From Flagellimonas sp. CMM7 (GTDB lineage Bacteria > Bacteroidota > Bacteroidia > Flavobacteriales > Flavobacteriaceae), in assembly GCF_021390195.1 (NCBI RefSeq), contig NZ_CP090003.1, positions 2,618,501-2,682,500 of the forward strand: a stretch of 64,000 nucleotides of DNA. The letters run 5' to 3'. Position 1 is the stretch's first letter, and the number at the start of each line of letters is the position of its first letter. The position numbers and the translations under genes are program-made. Below the pieces are notes generated by a model that ran no database searches, had not been told where the DNA came from, and worked only from the letters and a program-made list of their open reading frames with translations. Shown piece by piece: positions 14,527 through 39,453 of this stretch.

Positions 14527-15106
14527 ACAGGTAATGAACAGAGCAAATAAGACAAGGTTCCAAATAGGGGTCATGCTATGCATGGCCTTTTTGTTTTTTG
14601 GATTTTCACCTTCCAAAATTTTACCACGACTTTGGCAAAAACTTAATGCCGCGGTACAGACGACTTTTGAAGTAAACGATTTCTCTCTAGAGGAGATAAA
14701 AGTAAATAGCGGACTGATTGACAGAACTACGATAACATTAAACGGAGAAAACCTGTTTAGGATAATTCAAAAAGAGGCGCTAGTTGGTTATGCTTATTTA
14801 GGGGAAGCACCCAGTATGAAGAGCACCTTTGATTATGTAGTGTTGTTCAACAAAGATTTGAGCATAAAGAAAACAAAGGTGCTGATTTATCGAGAAGATT
14901 ATGGTCGACAGATCGGGAGTCAGCGTTGGTTAAGACAATTCATTGATAAAAAAGTGGGTGAGTCGATAACCTATGGCTCGGACATTGATGCCATTTCTGG
15001 AGCAACAATTTCGGCAAAATCTATGACCAAAGCTTTGAATGATGTTTTGACCAGCATGGAAGTTTTGAGAGACGAAAATATACTGAACCAGTTGAACCAT
15101 AAATAA
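14516..15106 (+). CDS. FMN-binding domain protein, RnfG/NqrC-like
   Basis: About 196 residues. An N-terminal hydrophobic helix (M-L-C-M-A-F-L-F-F-G-F) anchors or exports it. The FMN-binding domain ends in D-A-I-S-G-A-T-I-S-A-K-S near 157-168; the S-G-A-T-(S/I) motif is where Rnf/Nqr-type domains bind FMN covalently through a threonine. It therefore probably carries electrons on the periplasmic side. Starts considered are ATG 14516, which overlaps the DUF6607 gene by 11 bases, or ATG 14534. Second gene of the heme-linked plus-strand operon; I infer it passes electrons with the next gene's membrane protein. Confidence 0.88.
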   Translation: MISKQVMNRANKTRFQIGVMLCMAFLFFGFSPSKILPRLWQKLNAAVQTTFEVNDFSLEEIKVNSGLIDRTTITLNGENLFRIIQKEALVGYAYLGEAPSMKSTFDYVVLFNKDLSIKKTKVLIYREDYGRQIGSQRWLRQFIDKKVGESITYGSDIDAISGATISAKSMTKALNDVLTSMEVLRDENILNQLNHK

Positions 15107-15161
15107 TTCAAAGGGAACTCGCTGCCGCGGGAGTTTTTAAATTTTCTGCAAATTGGATTCG

Positions 15162-15656
15162 ATGAATATTAAGGGAATAATACAACGTTTTTCCAAAGAA
15201 ATAAGGTGCTTAATATTCGCGTATCTTATGATAACATCAATAGGGTTTATTTCTGCCATACGATTTGTAGGTGTTACCACAAATAATACACCAGTAGGAA
15301 TTGAGGAAAATTATTTAGGAAACGAGGATGACCTGAAAGCACAGGAATTAAAGTTTGCCAAAAGCGAAAAACAGATTCTCAATATAGTCCACTCCCATAT
15401 ACTTTCTATGGGGATGCTTTTTTTTATTCTAGCATTTTTGGTAGCCACAACACCCGTGCACGGCCTTTTGAGAAAGTTCCTTCTTTACGAACCGCTACTG
15501 TCAGTTCTGCTGACTTTTGGTGGAATTTATTTTTTGTGGAAGAAAGTGTTGTGGATGAAATATGTGATCATGGTTTCCGGTATGCTAATGACAACTTCCT
15601 ATGTTTTGTCCGTTGCAATAATCTGTTTTTGGCTTCTAAAAAAACAATTGAAGTAA
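15162..15656 (+). CDS. four-helix membrane protein with transmembrane histidines
   Basis: About 164 residues with a first helix near 15-37, a periplasmic loop (N-N-T-P-V-G-I-E-E-N-Y), then three helices. H-S-H-I-L-S-M-G-M and P-V-H-G-L-L lie in or next to helices, a layout compatible with heme b ligation, but no known cytochrome family is certain. Last gene of the operon with the DUF6607 and FMN-binding genes, 55 bases after the latter; the ATG is preferred over a TTG three codons upstream. A role as electron donor to the FMN-binding protein is inference from context. Confidence 0.75.
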   Translation: MNIKGIIQRFSKEIRCLIFAYLMITSIGFISAIRFVGVTTNNTPVGIEENYLGNEDDLKAQELKFAKSEKQILNIVHSHILSMGMLFFILAFLVATTPVHGLLRKFLLYEPLLSVLLTFGGIYFLWKKVLWMKYVIMVSGMLMTTSYVLSVAIICFWLLKKQLK

Positions 15657-15671
15657 TCTGATGTTTACGTT

Positions 15672-16082
15672 TTAGTAATCACTTTCGACCAACCGTTTGG
15701 AAATCCACCAATAATTCCCAGCAGGATCAATTATTCCACCTTGCCGGTCTTCATAAGGCATATCTTCCGGTTCAAATACAACTTCTGCGCCATGGGCCAG
15801 TGCATTTTTATATACTGTATCCACATCTTCCACATATAAATAGAAAGCGGTACGCATTCCTTCAAACTGGCCTCTTGCTTGGCTGAGCATAAAACAACTA
15901 TCTCCTATTTTAAGAATAACATTACTAAGATCACCGTTGGTTTCGTTGATGGATCTACTTATTTCTTCAGCATAAAACGCTTTTTGCAAAAAATCGATCA
16001 ACCCTAATGGATCTGATACGAACAAGTATGAATTTACATTGCTAAAACCTTCAGGGGTATATGTGTTGAATACTGTTTTCAT
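15672..16082 (-). CDS. VOC family (glyoxalase/bleomycin-resistance-like) protein
   Basis: A 136-residue PhnB-type member of the vicinal oxygen chelate fold. Visible are the S-Y-L-F-V-S-D-P first strand, G-D-S-C-F-M-L-S-Q-A, the central Y-L-Y-V-E-D-V-D-T-V-Y-K and the C-terminal Y-E-D-R-Q-G-G-I-I-D-P-A-G-N-Y-W-W-I. The metal ligands are not all conserved, as is common in PhnB-like proteins, so catalysis is uncertain. Convergent with the membrane-protein gene and divergent from an AraC regulator 68 bases away, which may control it. Confidence 0.85.
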   Translation of the reverse strand: MKTVFNTYTPEGFSNVNSYLFVSDPLGLIDFLQKAFYAEEISRSINETNGDLSNVILKIGDSCFMLSQARGQFEGMRTAFYLYVEDVDTVYKNALAHGAEVVFEPEDMPYEDRQGGIIDPAGNYWWISKRLVESDY

Positions 16083-16150
16083 AGCTTACGATTAAAAATG
16101 TTAAGGGTTTACAACAAAATAAGTACTTTTAATTTATATCAATAAGACGA

Positions 16151-17008
16151 ATGAACAGGGATATATTAGATATCAATGATTTTACCATTTTGATAGAAGA
16201 GGCAACTTCTACAGAGGTTACCACAGATTCGTGTTTATTTGATGAACCTGTTATTGCGGTTGCTTTTTATGGGTCCGGTAATGTAGATTTAACTGTTAAG
16301 TATGGAAATCAGCAAAAAGACTTTAATCATACCAAAGGATTGACGCTTTCATTCTATGCTGATGAAAAAGTGGAATTTAGGCACACAGTTTCTGCAGGTA
16401 AGCCTTTGGAATGCATTGTTATTGCCACTTCTCCAAGAAACCTTAAAAAATTACCAAACAATGAAGGTGAACTTTTTACCGAGCTGTTGGGACAATTGGT
16501 AAAGCCTTTTGATCATTATGTAGAAGGCCCGCGCTTTTTTATGACACCAGAAATGCAACATATTGTCGATGGTATTTTTAGCAATAGATATGAAGGTAAG
16601 GCCAAGATGATGTTTTTCCGTAGCCAGATAACCGCTTTATTATCACATTTTTTTTGGCAATTATCCATGTTAAAGGATGAAGGGATTAAAAGTGTTGAGC
16701 GTGAAAAACTGTATGAGGCTAAAGAAATATTATCCCAGAATTTGGATACTCCGCCCTCACTTACTGAACTTTCGCGCCAGATTGGGCTGAATACCTTTAA
16801 ACTGAAAAAGGACTTTAAAGAACTTTTTGGGGTGCCCGTGTTCAAATACCTGCAAAATGAGCGTATGACAAAGGCCCACAATCTTATCAGAAACAAAGAA
16901 GCCACGGTACAAGAAGCCGCATGGCATGTGGGGTACGATAGCTTAGGCTCTTTTTCTAACGCTTTCGCTAAAAAATTTGGCTTCCGCCCAAGCGAAATAA
17001 AGTCATAA
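16151..17008 (+). CDS. AraC family transcriptional regulator
   Basis: A 285-residue regulator. The N-terminal half is beta-rich and does not match a standard cupin closely; the C-terminal AraC domain (about 190-285) has two helix-turn-helix units, with S-L-T-E-L-S-R-Q-I-G-L-N-T-F-K-L and the second ending in G-Y-D-S-L-G-S-F-S-N-A-F-A-K-K-F-G-F-R-P-S. It resembles PchR-type regulators with a short sensor. It precedes the DUF5367-DUF1772-NmrA genes and lies divergent to the VOC gene, both candidate targets. Confidence 0.9.
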   Translation: MNRDILDINDFTILIEEATSTEVTTDSCLFDEPVIAVAFYGSGNVDLTVKYGNQQKDFNHTKGLTLSFYADEKVEFRHTVSAGKPLECIVIATSPRNLKKLPNNEGELFTELLGQLVKPFDHYVEGPRFFMTPEMQHIVDGIFSNRYEGKAKMMFFRSQITALLSHFFWQLSMLKDEGIKSVEREKLYEAKEILSQNLDTPPSLTELSRQIGLNTFKLKKDFKELFGVPVFKYLQNERMTKAHNLIRNKEATVQEAAWHVGYDSLGSFSNAFAKKFGFRPSEIKS

Positions 17009-17064
17009 TACTTTTCGAACAAATCTTTCTCCTTTTTGAATAAATCACCCCACCGTGGCTGTTC

Positions 17065-17072
17065 TAGTTTTG
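17065..17072 (+). promoter_or_regulatory. -7 element of the DUF5367-DUF1772-NmrA operon
   Basis: TAGTTTTG fits TAnnTTTG and lies 24 bases before the first ATG; TTTG at 17035-17038 is a loosely spaced -33 candidate. Confidence 0.5.
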
Positions 17073-17096
17073 CGCTATAATTAAAACCGAACAGTT

Positions 17097-17495
17097 ATGA
17101 AGATTTTTAGAGCAATTGGAATAGGAGCATTGATTTGGATTCTTGGGGTAAGTTCATACGCCTTGTCATTTTATGTTCCAATTATGGAAAATGTAGAACA
17201 ACAAGCGAATATCGTATTATTTGTGGTAGTTATGCCATTGGTTTGGGCGGGCTGCTGGATGTATTATAAACAAGATAGCTGGACCCATGGTTATAAAGTA
17301 GGACAGGCACTTTTTTTAACCAGCGCCGCTTTAGATGCCCTAATCACCGTTCCTTTTCTTATCATGCCCAATGGGGGTAGTTACTATGACTTTTATACTG
17401 ATGCTGGATTCTGGGTGATAGCCTTTGAGTTCATCGTCGTAGCCGTATTGTATTGGTACGCTAAAGTTTATGTGCAAAAACAAGAAACAATATAG
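17097..17495 (+). CDS. DUF5367 family membrane protein
   Basis: A 132-residue four-helix protein (helices near 7-27, 38-56, 68-88, 101-124). The opening I-G-I-G-A-L-I-W-I-L-G-V-S-S-Y and the middle D-A-L-I-T-V-P-F fit the DUF5367 family, of unknown function. First gene of a three-gene operon with a DUF1772 protein and an NmrA oxidoreductase, behind an AraC gene. Confidence 0.8.
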   Translation: MKIFRAIGIGALIWILGVSSYALSFYVPIMENVEQQANIVLFVVVMPLVWAGCWMYYKQDSWTHGYKVGQALFLTSAALDALITVPFLIMPNGGSYYDFYTDAGFWVIAFEFIVVAVLYWYAKVYVQKQETI

Positions 17496-17514
17496 TCAAT
17501 CAGAAACATGAATT

Positions 17515-18006
17515 ATGGAAATTTCAATGAGTAATCTTACACTTTTTGCAACTACTTTATGTTTTGGCCTTGTCGCAGGACTTTGCTTTACATGGGGGAA
17601 TGCGGTTACCCCGGGGATTGGACAATTGGACGATTTAGGTTATTTGCAGTCGTTTCAAAGAATGAATCGCAGCATAGAAAACCCCTTGTTTTTTGCAATT
17701 TTTATCGGTTCATTTTTTATTGGTATCGCTACCATATTTGCCAATAAAGGTATTTCACCATCACACTTTTGGTTGATACTTATTGCGGTGATTATCTACT
17801 TTTTGGGAGTGGTTTTGGTAACCATAACGGGCAATGTACCCCTAAACGAGCTGTTGGACAAGACCAATTTGACCGATAGTGGTATTGAAGATTTGAAGGC
17901 ACTTCGTGAAAGGTTTGAAAACCCATGGAACCGCTTTCATACCATTCGAATTATTACCGCAACCATCTCATTTGCTATGTTGATCATAGCAGGAATAAAC
18001 AAGTAA
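17515..18006 (+). CDS. DUF1772 (anthrone oxygenase-like) membrane protein
   Basis: A 163-residue four-helix protein. It has A-G-L-C-F-T-W-G-N-A-V-T-P-G near the start, the R-M-N-R-S-I-E-N-P cytoplasmic segment and N-V-P-L-N-E-L, then the E-R-F-E-N-P-W-N-R-F-H-T-I-R block, which are typical of DUF1772. Some fungal members are cofactor-free anthrone oxygenases; most bacterial ones are uncharacterised. Middle gene of the operon, so it may act with the NmrA-type reductase on a small aromatic or toxic compound, but that is a guess. Confidence 0.85.
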   Translation: MEISMSNLTLFATTLCFGLVAGLCFTWGNAVTPGIGQLDDLGYLQSFQRMNRSIENPLFFAIFIGSFFIGIATIFANKGISPSHFWLILIAVIIYFLGVVLVTITGNVPLNELLDKTNLTDSGIEDLKALRERFENPWNRFHTIRIITATISFAMLIIAGINK

Positions 18007-31527: not shown

Positions 31528-34500
31528 CTATAGGCTTAATCTTAAACGAGCAAAAAGAAAACGGCCGCTATATCCAAATTGAGATGTTCTTCTTGAATAT
31601 ACAAACTGGTCACCCGAAGTACCACCTTCTCTATTTTCATCTGGGTAAACATCAAAAAGGTTATTGGCCCCGACAGTTAGTGATAGGTTTTCCGTAAATG
31701 TCTTGGTTATAGTAAGGTCGGTCACCAATTTTCCTGCGTAAATAGCATCATCGCTAACGGTGGTACCAGAAACACGGGCATCCCCATTAAAATCATCAGG
31801 ATCGGTGACTTCTCCGAAGTATACATTTCTTAGTAGAAAATCCCAAGAATTTAATGAGACGAGATTGGTTAGATTCAATTTTGTTCTGGGTTGTGCCAAG
31901 GTCAAAAATGCCTCTTCTTGACCATCAAAGAAAGACCCGCTCAATCCCGCATTTTCTATAAGTTCTGGTACAAAAATGTTTTCAACTTCTGTTTTGTTGA
32001 ACGTAGCTGCCAAATCATTTTTTAATATAGCATCGCCCAAATTGGTTTTGTGGGAAAGGACAATATCCAAACCTGAAGATTTGGTATCAATCGCATTTAC
32101 AAAGAACCTAGCGCTAGTGGCGCCAGCAGATTCAAAAATTGCTGTAAGTTCAGGATCACCGCCATTCCCAAAGCTTCCGCTATACACAATACGATCGTCA
32201 ATATAAATTAGATATCCATCAACCGTAATTGAAAAGTCTCCGAAATTACCTGTTAGTCCAGCACTAAAACTATTGGAAGTTTCTTCTCTTAACTTATCAA
32301 TTCCAATAAGAGTAGCTGCTCTACTGTCATTGGTAAAAGTCCCTTGCTCAAAAGGAACGTTATCGACGAACACGGTGCTTGTTCTGCTAAAAAATTGTTG
32401 GTGCAAAGAAGGTGCCCTAAAACCAGAGCTGCTTGCCGCTCTTAACGCCAGATTTTCTGTAAGTTTTAATCTTGTGGCCAATTTATAGTTGAAGGTGCTC
32501 CCAAAATCTGAGTAGTTTTCATATCTACCTGCTAAACTTAGCAACCAGTTTTCGGTAAAATCTGCTTCAAAATCAGCATAAAGAGAAATATTGTTCCTGA
32601 ATTTTTCTGTTGCGTTACCAGGATCATATCCACGAAAAACTTGAGAACCTCCACCTAATGGTGAACCTGTAAAGTTATTTCTTACCAATTGATCGTCTGG
32701 TGTAACACTGTTTACGGGATTTCCGTTGATATCATAACTGGTATAAGAAGACTCTTCCCCTGCTATAATCTCGTACTTTTCAACCTTGTATTCCGCACCA
32801 AAAGCAACGTTAAATCCTTCGAAAATATCTTCGTGGAACCTACTGAAATCCAGGTTAGTTGTGTTCTGTGTAAATCCTAATCCACCTGCATCAAAGCTAC
32901 GTGGAGTTGCAACCCCGAGTGTTCCGTTACTTGAATTTCCTACGGTAATATCAAATGTATTTCTACCGTATGTATTTGAAAAGTCAACATCCCATTCATT
33001 TACCTTTCCTTTAATCCCCATAGCAATGGATTGATCTATTATATCTGTTCCAATGTTAGGTAAGAACCCATTGGGAAATGCCGGAGTGTTTGCACGTCCA
33101 TCACCTTGCGCAGGTCTTCTGTAGAACCCAGAAGCCAGCCCTTGACGATAACTTATGCCTCCAAAACCATAAACCTCTGTAGTTTCTGAAACAGGGATAG
33201 AAAGGTTTGCAAAGAATTTCCCTTCTCTTAGTCTTGATGTGCCTACTTTAAACCTGAAATCTTCTCTTGTAAGTCCACGTGCAGATAGTTCAGCCTCATC
33301 AGCGTCAAAACCTAATAGTCCACGAAAGGTGTCAATATCAGTTGCATCGTTTAGATCAAGACCTGCAATTTGATCCTTCACTCCTTGGTCTAGATAACCA
33401 ATGCCCTGTGCAGCATTTGCATAATCTTGTAAGCTCATATCAGCTACCGTTCCTCCTCCAGCAGCAAAAACGCGTTCTGCACCATGAAATCCTTGAAAAA
33501 TATCTCCTGCATAATCTTTGTTTCTTAATGCAGGTTCTCTGGTGGATAACGAACCAGTAAAATTAATATAGCCGCGATCTCCAATAGGAAGCCCAAAATT
33601 GGCATCTAACTGAAACTTTTCTCCATCACTTCCTCCTTCAAATTGATTACTGTTTTCACTAAAATTTGCTCCAGAGGTCAACGAAAGGTCTAGCTTACCG
33701 GTCGATTTTTTAAGCACTATATTGATGACGCCGGCAATGGCATCTGAACCATATTGAGCGGCCGCTCCATCTCTAAGCACCTCAATACGCTGTATGGCAG
33801 CTATTGGAATTGCGTTCATGTCAGTTCCCACGCTTCCTGCCCCAACGGTTCCGTTAACATTTATTAGAGCGGTGTTATGTCTTCTTTTTCCATTGATCAA
33901 TACCAATACTTGGTCTGGACCTAAACCACGAAGCGAAGCGGGATCTATATGATCTGTACCATCTGATACAGTCTGTGATTGAGAAGTGAAAGAAGGTGCA
34001 ACATAGTTCAATATTTCATTTACACTAACCTGTGGTCCTTGATTAGCAATGGTGGCTACATCAATTACATCTACTGGAACAGTAGTTTCAGTCGCTGTTC
34101 TATTAGGGTTTCTAGACCCTACTACGACCACATCATCCAATTGAGCGGCGTCTTCCGCAAGAACTATGTTGATGGTAGATTGCCCGTTCAATGGGACTTC
34201 AGTTGTCTTAAAACCAAGGTATGAGACGACCAGAACAGCATTTTCATCATCAACTTCCAGTATAAAATTTCCATCAAAATCCGCTTGTGAACCATTTGTG
34301 GTTCCTTTGACCAAGACATTTGCTCCGGGCAATGGGTTGCCGTCACCGTCTTTAACCGACCCATTTACCTGCCGCTGGTCATTTATAGGGTCGATAGCGC
34401 TTTTGTCCAACGATAGTTTTTTGAGAACAATTTGATTTCCATTTATGGAATAGTCTAAACTTTCTTGTTCCGATAGCCTATCCAAAACAGTGAATATCTT

Positions 34501-34776
34501 TTCATCTGATGCAGTCAATGAAGTTTTTTTATCATCGTTGATTTCATTCACGTTATAGAAGAAATTGTAGCCAGATTGTTTTTTTATCTCATTTAAAATA
34601 TCCTTTAAAGGAACATTTTCAAATTCAAAATGGACTTTCCTCTGTGAGTAAGCGTCACTAGCAGTGAGCTGACAAATAATAAATAAAGTGAGAAAAAAAC
34701 TTAACTTCATTTTTAAGGTCAATTTTGTGCTGGCCACCAAGAAAAAAGGTGACTTGAAAACCATGCTTTTTTTCAT
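31528..34776 (-). CDS. TonB-dependent receptor with STN and carboxypeptidase-regulatory-like domains
   Basis: A 1082-residue outer-membrane receptor. A long signal region (to about 45) is followed by an STN domain (about 50-115, F-E-N-V-P-L-K-D-I-L), the part contacting a FecR anti-sigma factor. A CarboxypepD_reg-like domain (about 140-215, G-A-N-V-L-V-K-G-T) precedes the plug (V-L-V-L-I-N-G-K-R-R, V-E-V-L-R-D-G-A-A-A-Q-Y-G-S-D-A) and barrel, which ends in a hydrophobic R-L-R-L-S-L. FecR and a sigma factor lie upstream, so receptor occupancy should control transcription. No SusD gene is adjacent, so this is not a glycan SusCD pair; the plug resembles siderophore/other small-ligand receptors. 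Ligand unknown. Confidence 0.92.
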   Translation of the reverse strand: MKKSMVFKSPFFLVASTKLTLKMKLSFFLTLFIICQLTASDAYSQRKVHFEFENVPLKDILNEIKKQSGYNFFYNVNEINDDKKTSLTASDEKIFTVLDRLSEQESLDYSINGNQIVLKKLSLDKSAIDPINDQRQVNGSVKDGDGNPLPGANVLVKGTTNGSQADFDGNFILEVDDENAVLVVSYLGFKTTEVPLNGQSTINIVLAEDAAQLDDVVVVGSRNPNRTATETTVPVDVIDVATIANQGPQVSVNEILNYVAPSFTSQSQTVSDGTDHIDPASLRGLGPDQVLVLINGKRRHNTALINVNGTVGAGSVGTDMNAIPIAAIQRIEVLRDGAAAQYGSDAIAGVINIVLKKSTGKLDLSLTSGANFSENSNQFEGGSDGEKFQLDANFGLPIGDRGYINFTGSLSTREPALRNKDYAGDIFQGFHGAERVFAAGGGTVADMSLQDYANAAQGIGYLDQGVKDQIAGLDLNDATDIDTFRGLLGFDADEAELSARGLTREDFRFKVGTSRLREGKFFANLSIPVSETTEVYGFGGISYRQGLASGFYRRPAQGDGRANTPAFPNGFLPNIGTDIIDQSIAMGIKGKVNEWDVDFSNTYGRNTFDITVGNSSNGTLGVATPRSFDAGGLGFTQNTTNLDFSRFHEDIFEGFNVAFGAEYKVEKYEIIAGEESSYTSYDINGNPVNSVTPDDQLVRNNFTGSPLGGGSQVFRGYDPGNATEKFRNNISLYADFEADFTENWLLSLAGRYENYSDFGSTFNYKLATRLKLTENLALRAASSSGFRAPSLHQQFFSRTSTVFVDNVPFEQGTFTNDSRAATLIGIDKLREETSNSFSAGLTGNFGDFSITVDGYLIYIDDRIVYSGSFGNGGDPELTAIFESAGATSARFFVNAIDTKSSGLDIVLSHKTNLGDAILKNDLAATFNKTEVENIFVPELIENAGLSGSFFDGQEEAFLTLAQPRTKLNLTNLVSLNSWDFLLRNVYFGEVTDPDDFNGDARVSGTTVSDDAIYAGKLVTDLTITKTFTENLSLTVGANNLFDVYPDENREGGTSGDQFVYSRRTSQFGYSGRFLFARLRLSL

Positions 34777-34855
34777 AATTTTGAGTGTTTGATTGTTAGT
34801 AATAATTCTTGTTAGCGATCTACAATTGGGGGAGGTGCTGCAACACCTTCCCTTT

Positions 34856-36004
34856 CTATTTTGATATGGTGATTATGTTGTTTTCTATTTCATAAGTAAA
34901 AGGTGTGCTAGAAGCTATTGTATTTAAAATAGTTTCAATACGTTCGTTCTGAAACTCTCCCATGAATATCTCATTGTTCAAGCTTTCTGCATTATTGATT
35001 ATTGAAACATTATGTGCCCTTTCAAGTTTTCGCAGTATTTGTTCAAATGACAGATTGTCTATGATCAATCTATTTTCCATCCAACTCGTGAAGGTGCGCA
35101 CGTCGACCTTCTGTTTTGTCAAAGTGCCGTTCTCTTTGGCAAATGCTGCCTGATAACTTGGACTAAGAAGGATTTTTGTGTCAGGATTGGAGTTCTCATA
35201 AACATTAACGGAACCCTCTACCAATGTGGTGGAGATTTCACCATCCGATTTATAGGCAGATACGTTGAACTGCGTTCCCAAAACCTTAATATCTAGGTTT
35301 TCCGCATTAACAATAAAAGGTCTTTTTTCATCTTTGGTGACATCAAAAAATGCTTCACCTTCCAAATAAACCATACGATTTTGAGCGGATGTATTTAAGT
35401 TTTTTGGAAACCGTAACCTAGATCCGGAATTTAGCCAAACCTTTGTTCCATCAGAAAGTGTTATCCTGAATTTTTGACCATAAGGGATATAAACTTCGTT
35501 GAAAACTATATTATCATCAGATGGATTTGCTATTTGACTAAAATCCAAACCTGTTGATTCTTTTTCTGCTATGACATTACCTTTTTTGTCTGTAAGTACC
35601 TTCCTGTTATCCGCAGCTATTACTTGTTGCGTTCCATCTGCAAGGGTAATCACAATTTGATTGGCTAGACTATTTGTCAGCGTTGATTCAGAATCACCTT
35701 TATTGTTAAATTGGGAGACGTATATAAAGCTTACAGTAGCTAAGAGGCCTATAAAAAGAGCTGCATAACGAACCAAGTGAAGCTTTTTCCTTCTTACGAC
35801 TCTGCCCTTGTCCACAGCAATCATGAATTCCTTAAAAGCATCTTTTCCATCAAAGTGATGGTGCAAATTATTTTCCGACCTATTTTTTATCTCTTTTTTA
35901 AAAGCGCTTAGGTTTTCCTTATTGGCTAGCACCCACTTTTTTAATCGTTTTCTTTCGTTAGCGGAAATAGTTCGGTTTAAAAATTTCTCAATTAAATCTT
36001 GCAT
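34856..36004 (-). CDS. fecR: FecR family anti-sigma factor
   Basis: A 382-residue inner-membrane regulator. An N-terminal cytoplasmic helical part (about 1-75) binds sigma, one helix (about 80-100, A-A-L-F-I-G-L-L-A-T) spans the membrane, the FecR domain has S-D-G-T-K-V-W-L-N-S-G-S-R-L-R-F near 190, and DUF4974 closes the C-terminus (L-S-F-E-Q-I-L-R-K-L). It transmits the receptor's STN signal to the sigma factor encoded divergently. 79 bases upstream of the receptor gene in the same direction. Confidence 0.93.
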   Translation of the reverse strand: MQDLIEKFLNRTISANERKRLKKWVLANKENLSAFKKEIKNRSENNLHHHFDGKDAFKEFMIAVDKGRVVRRKKLHLVRYAALFIGLLATVSFIYVSQFNNKGDSESTLTNSLANQIVITLADGTQQVIAADNRKVLTDKKGNVIAEKESTGLDFSQIANPSDDNIVFNEVYIPYGQKFRITLSDGTKVWLNSGSRLRFPKNLNTSAQNRMVYLEGEAFFDVTKDEKRPFIVNAENLDIKVLGTQFNVSAYKSDGEISTTLVEGSVNVYENSNPDTKILLSPSYQAAFAKENGTLTKQKVDVRTFTSWMENRLIIDNLSFEQILRKLERAHNVSIINNAESLNNEIFMGEFQNERIETILNTIASSTPFTYEIENNIITISK

Positions 36005-36092
36005 TTTTGATAGTCTTACATCTCTATGATACGAATTTGATAAAAAACCCCTACTTTTTTTATAAATTTTATACTTTAGCCTATATTTTTTT

Positions 36093-36641
36093 ATGATGAA
36101 CGAAAAAATACTGGTAGCAAATTTGAAGAAGGGCGACGTAGATGCCTATGAGTATTTGTTCAATGAATACTATGATTGGCTGTGTAATTATATCTTTAAA
36201 CTAAGCGGTAATAGAAGCCTTTCCAAGGACATTGTTCAAGAGACAATGATTAAGATTTGGGAAAAGAAACATCAGATAACTATTCGAGAATCGCTTAAGG
36301 CATATCTCTTTAAATCATGTCATAATCAATTTTTACTTCAACTAAGAAAGGACAAAAAGAAACCGGATCTTTTAGATAGGATTCGATGGGAGACGATTTA
36401 CGATAGCTATTTTGAACTTAAGGAAGATGATGATCTTATAAGAGCTAGCTATAACAAACTGGAAGAACTCATTGACAAGCTGCCGCCAAAATGCAAGGAG
36501 ATTTTTATCATGAACAAGTTGGAGCGCAGAAAGTATAGGGAAATTGCGGAGGATATGGGCATTTCCATCAAAACTGTGGAGAACCAAATGTCCAAGGCCT
36601 TACGGATAATTAGAGAGAATGCTTCGGTTCTTTTGTTTTGA
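36093..36641 (+). CDS. FecI-like ECF RNA polymerase sigma factor
   Basis: A 182-residue sigma-70 family protein. Region 2 (about 25-90) has Y-D-W-L-C-N-Y and K-D-I-V-Q-E-T-M-I-K-I-W-E-K; region 4 (about 125-180) has L-P-P-K-C-K-E-I-F and Y-R-E-I-A-E-D-M-G-I-S-I-K-T-V-E-N-Q. Typical Bacteroidota sigma. Divergent from fecR with 88 bases between. It should direct transcription of fecR-receptor when the receptor is occupied. Confidence 0.94.
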   Translation: MMNEKILVANLKKGDVDAYEYLFNEYYDWLCNYIFKLSGNRSLSKDIVQETMIKIWEKKHQITIRESLKAYLFKSCHNQFLLQLRKDKKKPDLLDRIRWETIYDSYFELKEDDDLIRASYNKLEELIDKLPPKCKEIFIMNKLERRKYREIAEDMGISIKTVENQMSKALRIIRENASVLLF

Positions 36642-36699: not shown

Positions 36700-37596
36700 T
36701 TACACCGCTGCGGGTGTTACTATGCCATCTTTAGAACGACCTAGCTTAATATTTACCAATATCTCATGCAAAGTTTCAGTGGCAAGCCCATGAAGCACAA
36801 GACGATATGCGGCGGTATATGTGGAAGTTGGTACCATGGGGTGCTTGTTGTTAACTAGCCCTAAATGTCCTGGTGTTCCCAATATTTGGGTGGTATAAAT
36901 TGCAACGGTCTCGTCTAATTGCAAGGAATTTGAAGCTCTTACAAAATCATTTGCAGTGAGAAAGAGTTGGTAAAAGGGGGTAAACAATTCTATTGCAGAT
37001 CTAAGGTCAAGGACGTTTGTCCATTTCTTTGGAAATTCAATATGCTTAAACTGATTTTCAGAAACCATACTTAGATTTAATGTATCCTGCTTTTGTAGTA
37101 CCAATCCTTTTTCTTTCAATTCACTGTTTAGCTTAATTACAAAATTGTACAGGTTTAAATCATGATTTAGGAAAAGATCATCTTTAACGTCATTAAAATC
37201 ATAAGGTTTTAAAGGACTTGTGGTAACTTGAATTCCGTCTACATTTTTGGCAACAAACTCCAATATTTCGCTTCCTGCATGAAAATGACGAAAAATCAAT
37301 AGATTGGCATCAGGGCTAACAAAACGTTTTAATCCCCATGCCAAAATTCTATGGAGGGCCTTGGAAGAATTAAAGAATTTTGGAAAGAAAAACTTAAAAA
37401 TGTGGATGAAGAACATTGATATTTTTGACCAAAATTTAATGAACGGAAGCAGATATCTGGTTGATCTGCTGTTATTGTCCCGCATTAGGGCCTGCTTGGT
37501 CAAATTATTAATTGGGATACTACTGTCCAGATACATTGCCAGCCAAGGATTGGGGTCTCTGGTATCATGATTTTTTATGTCAAATTGATTATCCAT
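36700..37596 (-). CDS. DUF6999-like protein, partner of the ketosynthase fusion
   Basis: A 298-residue, mostly helical protein which I recognise only loosely as DUF6999. A hydrophobic helix (I-S-M-F-F-I-H-I-F-K-F-F) lies near 60-72. Spaced acidic and histidine residues occur in predicted helices: R-H-F-H-A-G-S-E near 103, L-N-H-D-L near 143, L-D-E-T near 228 and L-H-G-L-A-T-E-T-L-H-E near 272-282, compatible with a metal site, but this is inference. Ten bases after the ketosynthase fusion gene on the same strand, so they form a transcriptional and probably functional pair. No characterised homologue is known to me. Confidence 0.8.
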   Translation of the reverse strand: MDNQFDIKNHDTRDPNPWLAMYLDSSIPINNLTKQALMRDNNSRSTRYLLPFIKFWSKISMFFIHIFKFFFPKFFNSSKALHRILAWGLKRFVSPDANLLIFRHFHAGSEILEFVAKNVDGIQVTTSPLKPYDFNDVKDDLFLNHDLNLYNFVIKLNSELKEKGLVLQKQDTLNLSMVSENQFKHIEFPKKWTNVLDLRSAIELFTPFYQLFLTANDFVRASNSLQLDETVAIYTTQILGTPGHLGLVNNKHPMVPTSTYTAAYRLVLHGLATETLHEILVNIKLGRSKDGIVTPAAV

Positions 37597-37605
37597 GTCT
37601 GTAAA

Positions 37606-39453
37606 TTAGTAATTACCCAGCTCTTTTAACTGTAAATGATATAATAGTGCTGTAGTTTTTGCTGTTTTGGCAATTTGCCTTGCCAGTTCCATATTCATTA
37701 ATGGGTGATTCAAGGCCTCTTCTAAATGATGAAAATGGTTTTCATCTGCCACACCATGATAGGTTAAAAATGAAACCTGGTTGTCTTCAAGTTTAAGTTG
37801 GTCCTGAATTAGGTTTCCCCAATACCCAGCAAGCCGTTTTCCAATGCCTTCTATAATAAACATTGCCCCTAACAGGTCAATAGGATTTGGACTACTTGCC
37901 CTCTGAAACATGAAGGAGGACAAAGCCGCACTTCCAATATTTTTTTCTCCAAGCTGAATTTTTTCCAAGGACTCTCCAAGTGCCACATAGTTTTTTTCCA
38001 AGAGCTGAAAGTCTTTGTGTTCAGTAGCCGTATGTTTTATAAAAGCAGACCTAAGCTCAAATATGGAAATATCAATATTGGATGCTGCTCTAGAAATCCA
38101 TTGAGAGCCATCAATAACCTGTTGTCTTAGATCAAACAAAAGTAATTTGTAGTTTTCAATACTAAGAGTTCCTTGATGAATCTGCTTAACAATGGGAATT
38201 TCCAATAGTTTGTTTTCAAAATCAATCCAAATTTGAGTCAATTGTCTAACCAACCATTCCGATGTTGGATTCCTGTTTATATTAAGACCTGGAGCCTCTA
38301 CTTTTCTAATTGAATATTTGGGAGCTATTTTTTTTGAGCTCCCAACTACTTTGAGTTTCATGAAAGAAGTTATAAACCTGCCGCTTTCCGGAACCATACA
38401 TATAACGGTATCGCCCTCCTTCAAATTACCAGAGTACATCAATTCTTCAAGCATTATAAACATGGATGCTGAACCCGTATTGCCTTTACTGGTTAAGTTG
38501 CTAAACCATTTTTCTTCTGGAATGTTGGCCCCACCCTTTTTTAAAAGATCTATTATGGGCTGTTTAAAATAAAGGGACGAGTAATGGCAGCAAAACCAAT
38601 CAATTTCCTCCGTAATTATTTTCCCTTGATCAATTAAGTTAAAATAGTGAGATACGCCCACTTCAATAACTTTGTTTAAAAGTCTGGTATTTTGTTTTAA
38701 ATTAATTGCACCATCTTTTGAAGCAGTCTCATAGTCAGGATAATCTAGCCATCCGTTTACATGATTATCATTACCCATGGAACCAACATACATACATAGT
38801 GGGTTCTCATTTGCGTAGGATTTTATGTCTACCCATTCTATCTGTAAAGAAAGCCCTTTGGTATTTGGTTTATTTTCCAGAACCATTGCACCGGCACCAT
38901 CGGATAGCATCCATCTTAAAAAATCAGTATCAAAAGGGATGGATTTTTGTTCTTGCCCTTCAAATCTTGATGCTTTAAAAAGCCTACTGGCAAACTCACT
39001 TCCAACGCAAAGTGCATTTTCTTTTTCATTTGCTTTAATTTGAGAATAAGCACTTTTAATGGCCATCATTCCACTTGCGCATACACTTTGAAAACTTGCT
39101 AGCTCACAATGGGCAGTATCGAGTTCTGCATGCACCAAACTGGCAAAACCTGGTACAGGGAGGTCACCTTGGGTAGTACCTGCGGAAATCATTTGCACAT
39201 CTTGATTAAGTACGCTACTTTTTTTAAGAGCGGCTTTACATGCCATTGCGGCTAATTGGGCATTGGAGTGGGTGCTTTTCTGATTTTCATCCAAGGCATA
39301 GTACCTATTCTCAATTCCATTCTGACTTAGGATTCTTGATTTGACCCTACTTGCCTTACCATGTATTTTCCCCAGATAATCTTCCATTTCTTTATTGGAA
39401 ATTGGATTGTTTGGCAGATAAACTCCTAGGGCATTGATATAAACCTCCTCCAT
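37606..39453 (-). CDS. StlD/DarB-type ketosynthase fused to heme-oxygenase-like metal oxidase domain
   Basis: A 615-residue two-domain protein. Residues 1-370 are a KAS III-like ketosynthase with an intact Cys-His-Asn triad: C125 (Q-S-V-C-A-S-G), H290 (F-C-C-H-Y-S-S) and N325 (S-K-G-N-T-G-S). StlD/DarB enzymes condense acyl chains into cyclohexanedione or dialkylresorcinol products. Residues about 400-610 are a TenA/PqqC/heme-oxygenase-like helical domain: H474/E478 in K-H-T-A-T-E-H-K, E535 in I-I-E-G-I-G, H566, D570 and H573 in Y-H-G-V-A-D-E-N-H. Those are candidate metal ligands as in non-heme diiron oxidases such as UndA-type enzymes. I infer that the ketosynthase product or a fatty acyl thioester is oxidised or decarboxylated by the C-terminal domain. 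No dialkylresorcinol aromatase or acyl carrier gene lies beside it. Confidence 0.87.
   Translation of the reverse strand: MEEVYINALGVYLPNNPISNKEMEDYLGKIHGKASRVKSRILSQNGIENRYYALDENQKSTHSNAQLAAMACKAALKKSSVLNQDVQMISAGTTQGDLPVPGFASLVHAELDTAHCELASFQSVCASGMMAIKSAYSQIKANEKENALCVGSEFASRLFKASRFEGQEQKSIPFDTDFLRWMLSDGAGAMVLENKPNTKGLSLQIEWVDIKSYANENPLCMYVGSMGNDNHVNGWLDYPDYETASKDGAINLKQNTRLLNKVIEVGVSHYFNLIDQGKIITEEIDWFCCHYSSLYFKQPIIDLLKKGGANIPEEKWFSNLTSKGNTGSASMFIMLEELMYSGNLKEGDTVICMVPESGRFITSFMKLKVVGSSKKIAPKYSIRKVEAPGLNINRNPTSEWLVRQLTQIWIDFENKLLEIPIVKQIHQGTLSIENYKLLLFDLRQQVIDGSQWISRAASNIDISIFELRSAFIKHTATEHKDFQLLEKNYVALGESLEKIQLGEKNIGSAALSSFMFQRASSPNPIDLLGAMFIIEGIGKRLAGYWGNLIQDQLKLEDNQVSFLTYHGVADENHFHHLEEALNHPLMNMELARQIAKTAKTTALLYHLQLKELGNY

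Follow-up and report, generated by a model that had tools for sequence, protein, structure and literature searches.

The gene at positions 37606..39453 on the minus strand of the window, a 64,000-nucleotide stretch of the Flagellimonas sp. CMM7 genome (contig NZ_CP090003.1, positions 2,618,501 to 2,682,500), encodes a StlD/DarB-like ketosynthase (KS) domain fused to a heme-oxygenase-like dimetal oxidase (HDO) domain, and it is followed by a gene for a DUF6999 protein. We propose that the two genes form a compact biosynthetic module, with three activities on two polypeptides, that works in the steps set out below, and we put the probability of this reading at roughly 0.42. The proposal builds on features observed directly with the programs used: the fusion itself, its conserved residues, its linkage to DUF6999, a version that occurs naturally as three genes, and searches without DarA-like or BtrH_N matches. 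The presence of two intact catalytic sites in the fusion is supported by residue conservation.

The open reading frame (ORF) of the fusion begins with ATG and encodes 615 amino acids (aa) with no internal stop. The KS domain occupies residues 1-370 (38344..39453, minus strand) and the HDO domain residues 375-615 (37606..38331, minus strand). In the N-terminal half, the Pfam family ACP_syn_III_C scored 45 bits (cut-off 26.6), and Thiolase_N, ACP_syn_III and ketoacyl-synt were also above their cut-offs. In the C-terminal half, Haem_oxygenas_2 (PF14518) scored 31 bits with the whole protein and 33 bits with the domain alone (cut-off 28.9). The ORF and the Pfam domains in both halves confirm the original prediction of a ketosynthase joined to a heme-oxygenase-like domain. 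The AlphaFold2 prediction had a mean predicted local distance difference test (pLDDT) score of 87.5 and a predicted template modelling (pTM) score of 0.62, and the matches listed by a fold search with the whole model were KS-type folds that reached at most residue 376. Conservation was judged from an alignment of 126 sequences, which consisted of the window protein, its 120 best-listed relatives in the database, four divergent fusions taken from loci and a concatenation of the KS and HDO proteins of Pseudoalteromonas. Much of the conservation in this alignment reflects kinship, because 120 of its rows are relatives at 67% identity or above. The five divergent rows, the lowest of which is the split Pseudoalteromonas protein at 36% identity in the C-terminal domain, agree on the catalytic residues.

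The fused KS has the KAS III fold and the Cys-His-Asn triad that characterize the StlD/DarB family. The triad residues C125, H290 and N325, which had been claimed to be intact, were identical in all 126 sequences. The expectation that relatives of this domain build rings was also supported, as the fused KS was nearest to StlD. StlD, a Photorhabdus ketosynthase, and DarB make alkyl cyclohexanediones from two acyl thioesters. The fused KS scored 432.2 bits against NF005293 (StlD/DarB family beta-ketosynthase), under the curated cut-off of 450, and it is therefore filed as a sister subfamily and not as a StlD/DarB member. Against the NCBIfam model for DarB it scored 394 bits, far under the cut-off of 550. 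One database entry among the relatives listed, from Zobellia, bears the name StlD/DarB family beta-ketosynthase.

The likely metal ligands of the HDO domain, judged by conservation, are H474, E478, E535, H566, D570 and H573, perhaps with D448. The original prediction had listed E478, E535, H566, D570 and H573. All five were identical in 126 of 126 sequences, but the list was incomplete; it missed H474, which is invariant (126/126), and D448, which is Asp in 124 sequences and Glu in 2, both likely metal positions. The only positions of the domain that were always His were H474, H566 and H573, while those that were always Asp or Glu were E413, D448, E478, E486, E535 and D570 (126/126 in each case); E413 and E486, both invariant, fall outside the likely ligand set. 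Position E466, which could be the first Glu of the published motif, is Glu or Asp in 123 sequences; of the other three, two have Pro and one has Lys. In the AlphaFold2 model, H474 and E478 lie on predicted helix 465-491 and E535 on helix 525-553, and H566-x3-D570-x2-H573 spans predicted helix 557-569, the following turn and helix 571-581. The six putative ligands fall on three core helices and D448 on the preceding helix, as placed by predicted helices and not by coordinates.

These positions can be compared with published HDO sites, for which PMC13108848, PMC11611611 and PMC11363339 are cited by the passages retrieved. The metal site of an HDO is built from three His and three carboxylate ligands spread over three core helices, and an estimated 1 in 4 HDOs has a fourth carboxylate, carried by an auxiliary helix (PMC13108848). 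Judged by conservation and predicted helices, the fusion has this set of six ligands on three core helices, and H474/E478, E535 and H566-x3-D570-x2-H573 together with D448 match the ligand count of that review. The ligands of AetD are D76/H79, E140 and an H-x3-E-x2-H motif (PMC11611611), a pattern that E535 and H566-x3-D570-x2-H573 fit directly. SznF E189 and RohS E93 represent an extra glutamate ligand on auxiliary helix 2 (PMC11611611); judged by spacing only, D448 would be placed where SznF and RohS carry this fourth carboxylate. The published ligand order is E-H-E-H-(D/E)-H, with E-H-X-H-(D/E)-H predicted for ~85% of the HDO groups analysed (PMC11363339), and E535, H566, D570 and H573 follow the last four places of this order. 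The domain had been labeled TenA/PqqC-like, which is a loose description: the only significant relative in a profile search of the PDB was 3dde, a protein of heme-oxygenase-like fold and unknown function (E 5e-8), and the TenA homologue 2gm7 had an E value of 0.53.

The partner gene (36700..37596, minus strand) starts 9 nucleotides (nt) past the stop of the fusion gene and encodes a 298-aa protein that matched DUF6999 (PF22523) with 394 bits over profile positions 1-275 (cut-off 27). The protein is predicted to be all-helical (pLDDT 85.4, pTM 0.85). A membrane span is not indicated, because no 19-residue stretch of the window protein exceeds a mean hydropathy of 1.6. Neither sequence nor fold search found a solved relative. 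Residues D40, K68, R103, H104, N118, H145, D146, D197, N223, D228, N250, H269 and E274 were invariant in 242 of 242 aligned sequences, an alignment that excludes the divergent copies of genomes G219, G254, G280 and G317. The three His and several Asp/Glu residues on different helices suggest a metal site. A protein database search gave 2595 DUF6999 relatives at E <=0.001, and a search with the Pseudoalteromonas protein listed gammaproteobacterial names, among them Vibrio, Rheinheimera, Halomonas and Endozoicomonas. A DUF6999 gene above the cut-off was also seen in the control genome, Caulobacter vibrioides.

The fusion and DUF6999 were found together throughout three overlapping genome samples. 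In the genus sample the fusion was present in 10 of 71 genomes and DUF6999 in the same 10, with 11 copies of each and every pair adjacent on the same strand. In the order sample, 4 of 395 genomes had the fusion (E <=1e-100) and the same 4 had DUF6999. In the phylum sample, the full-length fusion occurred in 4 of 296 genomes and DUF6999 above the cut-off in 5 (those 4 and G219). The presence of the fusion is thus patchy at all three levels. When pooled, the samples contained 14 distinct genomes with 15 fusion copies, each with an adjoining DUF6999 gene. The original prediction had suggested counting how often the domains and the neighboring gene co-occur, and in this count the neighbor adjoins the fusion in 14/14 genomes; the prediction had left it unnamed, although no other feature is as constant as DUF6999. 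Two full fusion-DUF6999 pairs, at loci L058 and L061, are present in a single genome of the genus sample (G298).

The fusion is a family of at least 120 listed clusters and not a rarity. A protein database search with the fusion scored 7999 candidates, with 6908 at E <=0.001; the latter is not a count of fusions, because unfused KS proteins fall within the length window of the search. The 120 fusion relatives listed were 593-626 aa long, shared 67-98% identity with the query and covered 96-100% of it, and 112 of them had a precomputed PF14518 domain. Organism names, given for a minority of the relatives listed, were mostly from Bacteroidota (Flagellimonas, Zobellia, Aquimarina, Marivirga, Catalinimonas, Pedobacter and others).

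On a plasmid of Pseudoalteromonas sp. THAF3 (locus L045), the same three parts are encoded by consecutive genes on one strand: KS at 14995-16095, HDO at 16098-16778 and DUF6999 at 16771-17613. The gap between KS and HDO is 2 nt, and HDO and DUF6999 overlap by 8 nt. This arrangement supports the three parts working together and indicates that the fusion is not essential. The THAF3 HDO shares 36% identity with the HDO domain of the fusion and keeps all six core ligands. It has no PF14518 hit, while 9 of the 10 members of the domain alignment do. A hydrophobic, His-rich gene of 185 aa (L045:14436-14993) ends 1 nt ahead of the THAF3 KS, and in an unrelated host (G182) a fatty acid hydroxylase gene (L047:12273-12998) ends 3 nt ahead of the fusion.

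In a KS tree of 59 rows, the fused KS, the Pseudoalteromonas KS and stand-alone Paenibacillus KS proteins (L010-L014, 50-53% identity to the fused KS) were on one branch with 100/100 support, apart from the unfused KS of Bacteroidota. The join of this branch with the Desulfuromonas KS (L016) was weak (85/64) and possibly a long-branch effect, and the deeper inner forks were weak. The fused label needs two changes on this tree; with deep forks this weak, a single fusion, repeated fusion and loss are all compatible with it. One long-branched KS from a Streptomyces plasmid was on the same 100/100 branch. In that plasmid (Streptomyces sp. NBC_00008, L046:7706-17113), the KS gene is surrounded by genes for acyl carrier proteins, FabF, FabG, a P450 and a protein of the aromatic-ring hydroxylase type; together they may form a cluster that could give a clue to the kind of product made.

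A standard flexirubin or dialkylresorcinol cluster was considered and rejected. In agreement with the original prediction, which had described the locus as not being of this kind, the genome of the window (G000) gave no DarA-like or BtrH_N match at E <=0.001. DarA aromatises the ring in dialkylresorcinol pathways. The DarA-like query (L015:845-1783) has its label from its position only, and BtrH_N genes are called DarH because NCBIfam gave DarG and DarH hits next to two related KS genes (L015 and L017). The phylum sample held 22 genomes with only unfused KS of this type, plus G182, which has both fused and unfused KS. The search covered 17 genomes, of which 13 were fusion genomes (of the 14; G589 was left out) and 4 were from the 22 with only unfused KS. 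Both BtrH_N and DarA-like genes were found in 5 of the 17, namely all four unfused-KS genomes and G182, in each case close to the unfused KS. Neither was found in 12 of the 13 fusion genomes, G000 included; in the thirteenth, G182, they lie at the second, unfused KS.

We propose that the module works as follows. The StlD/DarB-like KS would condense two acyl thioesters supplied by ordinary fatty-acid metabolism, as its family and intact triad suggest; the product would most likely be ring-closed, a 2,5-dialkyl-cyclohexane-1,3-dione or a related beta-dicarbonyl. The fused HDO, by its fold family and invariant ligands, would bind two metal ions, probably iron, and activate O2, and it would oxidize the KS product by aromatization, hydroxylation or C-C cleavage. 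It would thereby carry out an oxidation for which dialkylresorcinol pathways use a separate protein of DarA type. The original interpretation, of one polypeptide that condenses and then oxidizes an acyl chain, is partly supported; the oxidation may instead be on a ring or a nitrogen. That the HDO oxidizes the KS product is the simplest reading, because there is no DarA-like match and a domain of an O2-activating type is fused to the KS. DUF6999, predicted to be soluble and all-helical, would share this substrate or product, on which it would act perhaps as another metal enzyme using its invariant H104, H145, D146, D228, H269 and E274. A more specific version of this proposal is tentative and, taken as a whole, rather doubtful: the module would be a self-contained lipid pathway in which the fused HDO replaces the DarA-type protein and, together with DUF6999, makes previously unseen alkylated cyclic lipids (resorcinol, hydroxyquinone or ring-cleaved), with a metal site of H-E-E-H-D-H type, a reversed first-helix motif and a fourth carboxylate.

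Several observations weigh against the module as proposed. A metagenome-assembled genome (L009) has the fusion at 52% identity and no DUF6999 match (0 of 8 genomes searched, this one included), so that DUF6999 may be dispensable or this assembly incomplete. In G219 (L050:1404-5201), a divergent gene resembling DUF6999 overlaps with a KS gene that has no HDO domain, which indicates that the HDO is not a constant component of all such loci; a flavin-containing monooxygenase follows this pair, as if another oxidase had replaced the HDO. DUF6999 was not found in four Paenibacillus genomes searched, and no convincing HDO was seen at the five Paenibacillus loci. The DarA-like protein has no Pfam hit, and its counterpart at L017 has neither an NCBIfam nor a Pfam hit. 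The first core helix of the HDO domain reads H474-x3-E478, an unusual reversal of the E-H order in the published motif (PMC11363339). Finally, ring closure is not assured, given the scores of 432/450 with NF005293 and 394/550 with DarB. In an unlikely alternative, the KS is OleA/PqsD-like and closes no ring, but joins two acyl groups head-to-head or one acyl group to a small acceptor; the HDO would then act like UndA on the beta-keto product, cleaving or decarboxylating it to an alkene or an unsaturated ketone.

Two further explanations concern the HDO domain. Its D448 (Asp or Glu in 126/126) matches SznF E189 and RohS E93 by spacing (PMC11611611), and SznF is a 3H/4C N-oxygenase (PMC13108848). 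The HDO could thus be a SznF/RohS-type N-oxygenase, with the KS acylating an amino acid or amine, or making a keto group that is later aminated, to yield an N-hydroxy lipid, an oxime or similar. The match rests on spacing and not on measured structure, however, and the 19 Pfam-scanned ORFs of the window contain no aminotransferase or amino-acid-activating gene besides a housekeeping lysyl-tRNA synthetase, nor does the Pseudoalteromonas gene list; this explanation is judged less likely still. It is improbable that the HDO domain is metal-free, structural or substrate-channelling, with the KS alone catalytic. Metal-free members of the fold exist (PMC13108848; PqqC, PMC11363339), the first-helix motif is in reversed order and the Pseudoalteromonas HDO lacks a PF14518 hit, but none of the six candidate ligands varies in the 126 sequences, even in the split protein at 36% domain identity.

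The surroundings of the module were analyzed by a Pfam scan of 19 window ORFs, the 2 module genes and 17 others, with small ORFs such as carrier proteins outside the scan. Hits among the 17 were FecR, a TonB receptor, an ECF sigma factor, an amidohydrolase, lysyl-tRNA synthetase, a thioredoxin-like protein, a LuxR-type regulator, a short-chain dehydrogenase/reductase, an amine oxidase, an AraC regulator, a sulfate symporter, a lipoate ligase, an OmpA-like protein and a sub-cut-off collagen-like protein. A larger gene cluster was sought among these ORFs and rejected; the neighbors differ between relatives and for this reason are not counted as parts. The ECF sigma factor, FecR and TonB receptor genes adjoin the module (31528-36641), and by ORF length and N-terminal sequence this trio is beside the module in 4 of 5 Flagellimonas/Allomuricauda loci (L004, L006, L007 and L008, not L005).

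As the original prediction had supposed, no characterized enzyme with the KS-then-HDO order was described among the matches listed in open-licence PubMed Central. The term DUF6999, and dialkylresorcinol combined with heme oxygenase-like, each returned 0 open-licence papers there, and the terms ketosynthase, polyketide, fusion, fused and Bacteroid had no matches in a term search of the HDO review (PMC13108848). The component families are known; the combination, the DUF6999 partner and possibly the metal motif are undescribed among the matches listed, as far as the passages retrieved go. The fusion and DUF6999 are widespread and, within the literature searched, unstudied, and the pair has database names such as beta-ketoacyl-ACP synthase III and DUF6999 family protein. 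About a dozen members of the HDO superfamily were functionally validated according to this 2026 review (PMC13108848). If the proposal is true, the module is a minimal pathway in which two proteins turn fatty-acid intermediates into an oxidized lipid, the superfamily gains a reaction and DUF6999 gains a first role.

The module can be compared with four known systems. The sequence of StlD (PDB 5gk0-5gk2) stops at fusion residue 370, the point from which the fusion continues with its link to the HDO, and the fused KS scores below the curated cut-off of the StlD/DarB family. The DarB-like KS proteins of Bacteroidota, of the flexirubin/dialkylresorcinol type, are unfused and share 38-43% identity with the fused KS, which is on a separate 100/100 branch; they have DarA-like and BtrH_N genes close by in 5 of 5 tested (of 23 in the phylum sample), whereas the fusion has neither. 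In PDB 3dde, residues identical to H474, E478, E535, H566, D570 and H573 align with all six, but 3dde is a 239-aa chain without a ketosynthase and has an extra His four residues past the Glu, where the fusion has Phe or Tyr. Like the HDO superfamily (UndA, BesC, SznF, CADD, AetD and FlcD), the fusion has PF14518 above the cut-off, and its three His and at least three carboxylates lie on helices that correspond to the core ones (PMC13108848, PMC11363339, PMC11611611, as retrieved). It differs from these enzymes in the His-then-Glu order of its first core helix, in its position behind a ketosynthase and in its DUF6999 partner.
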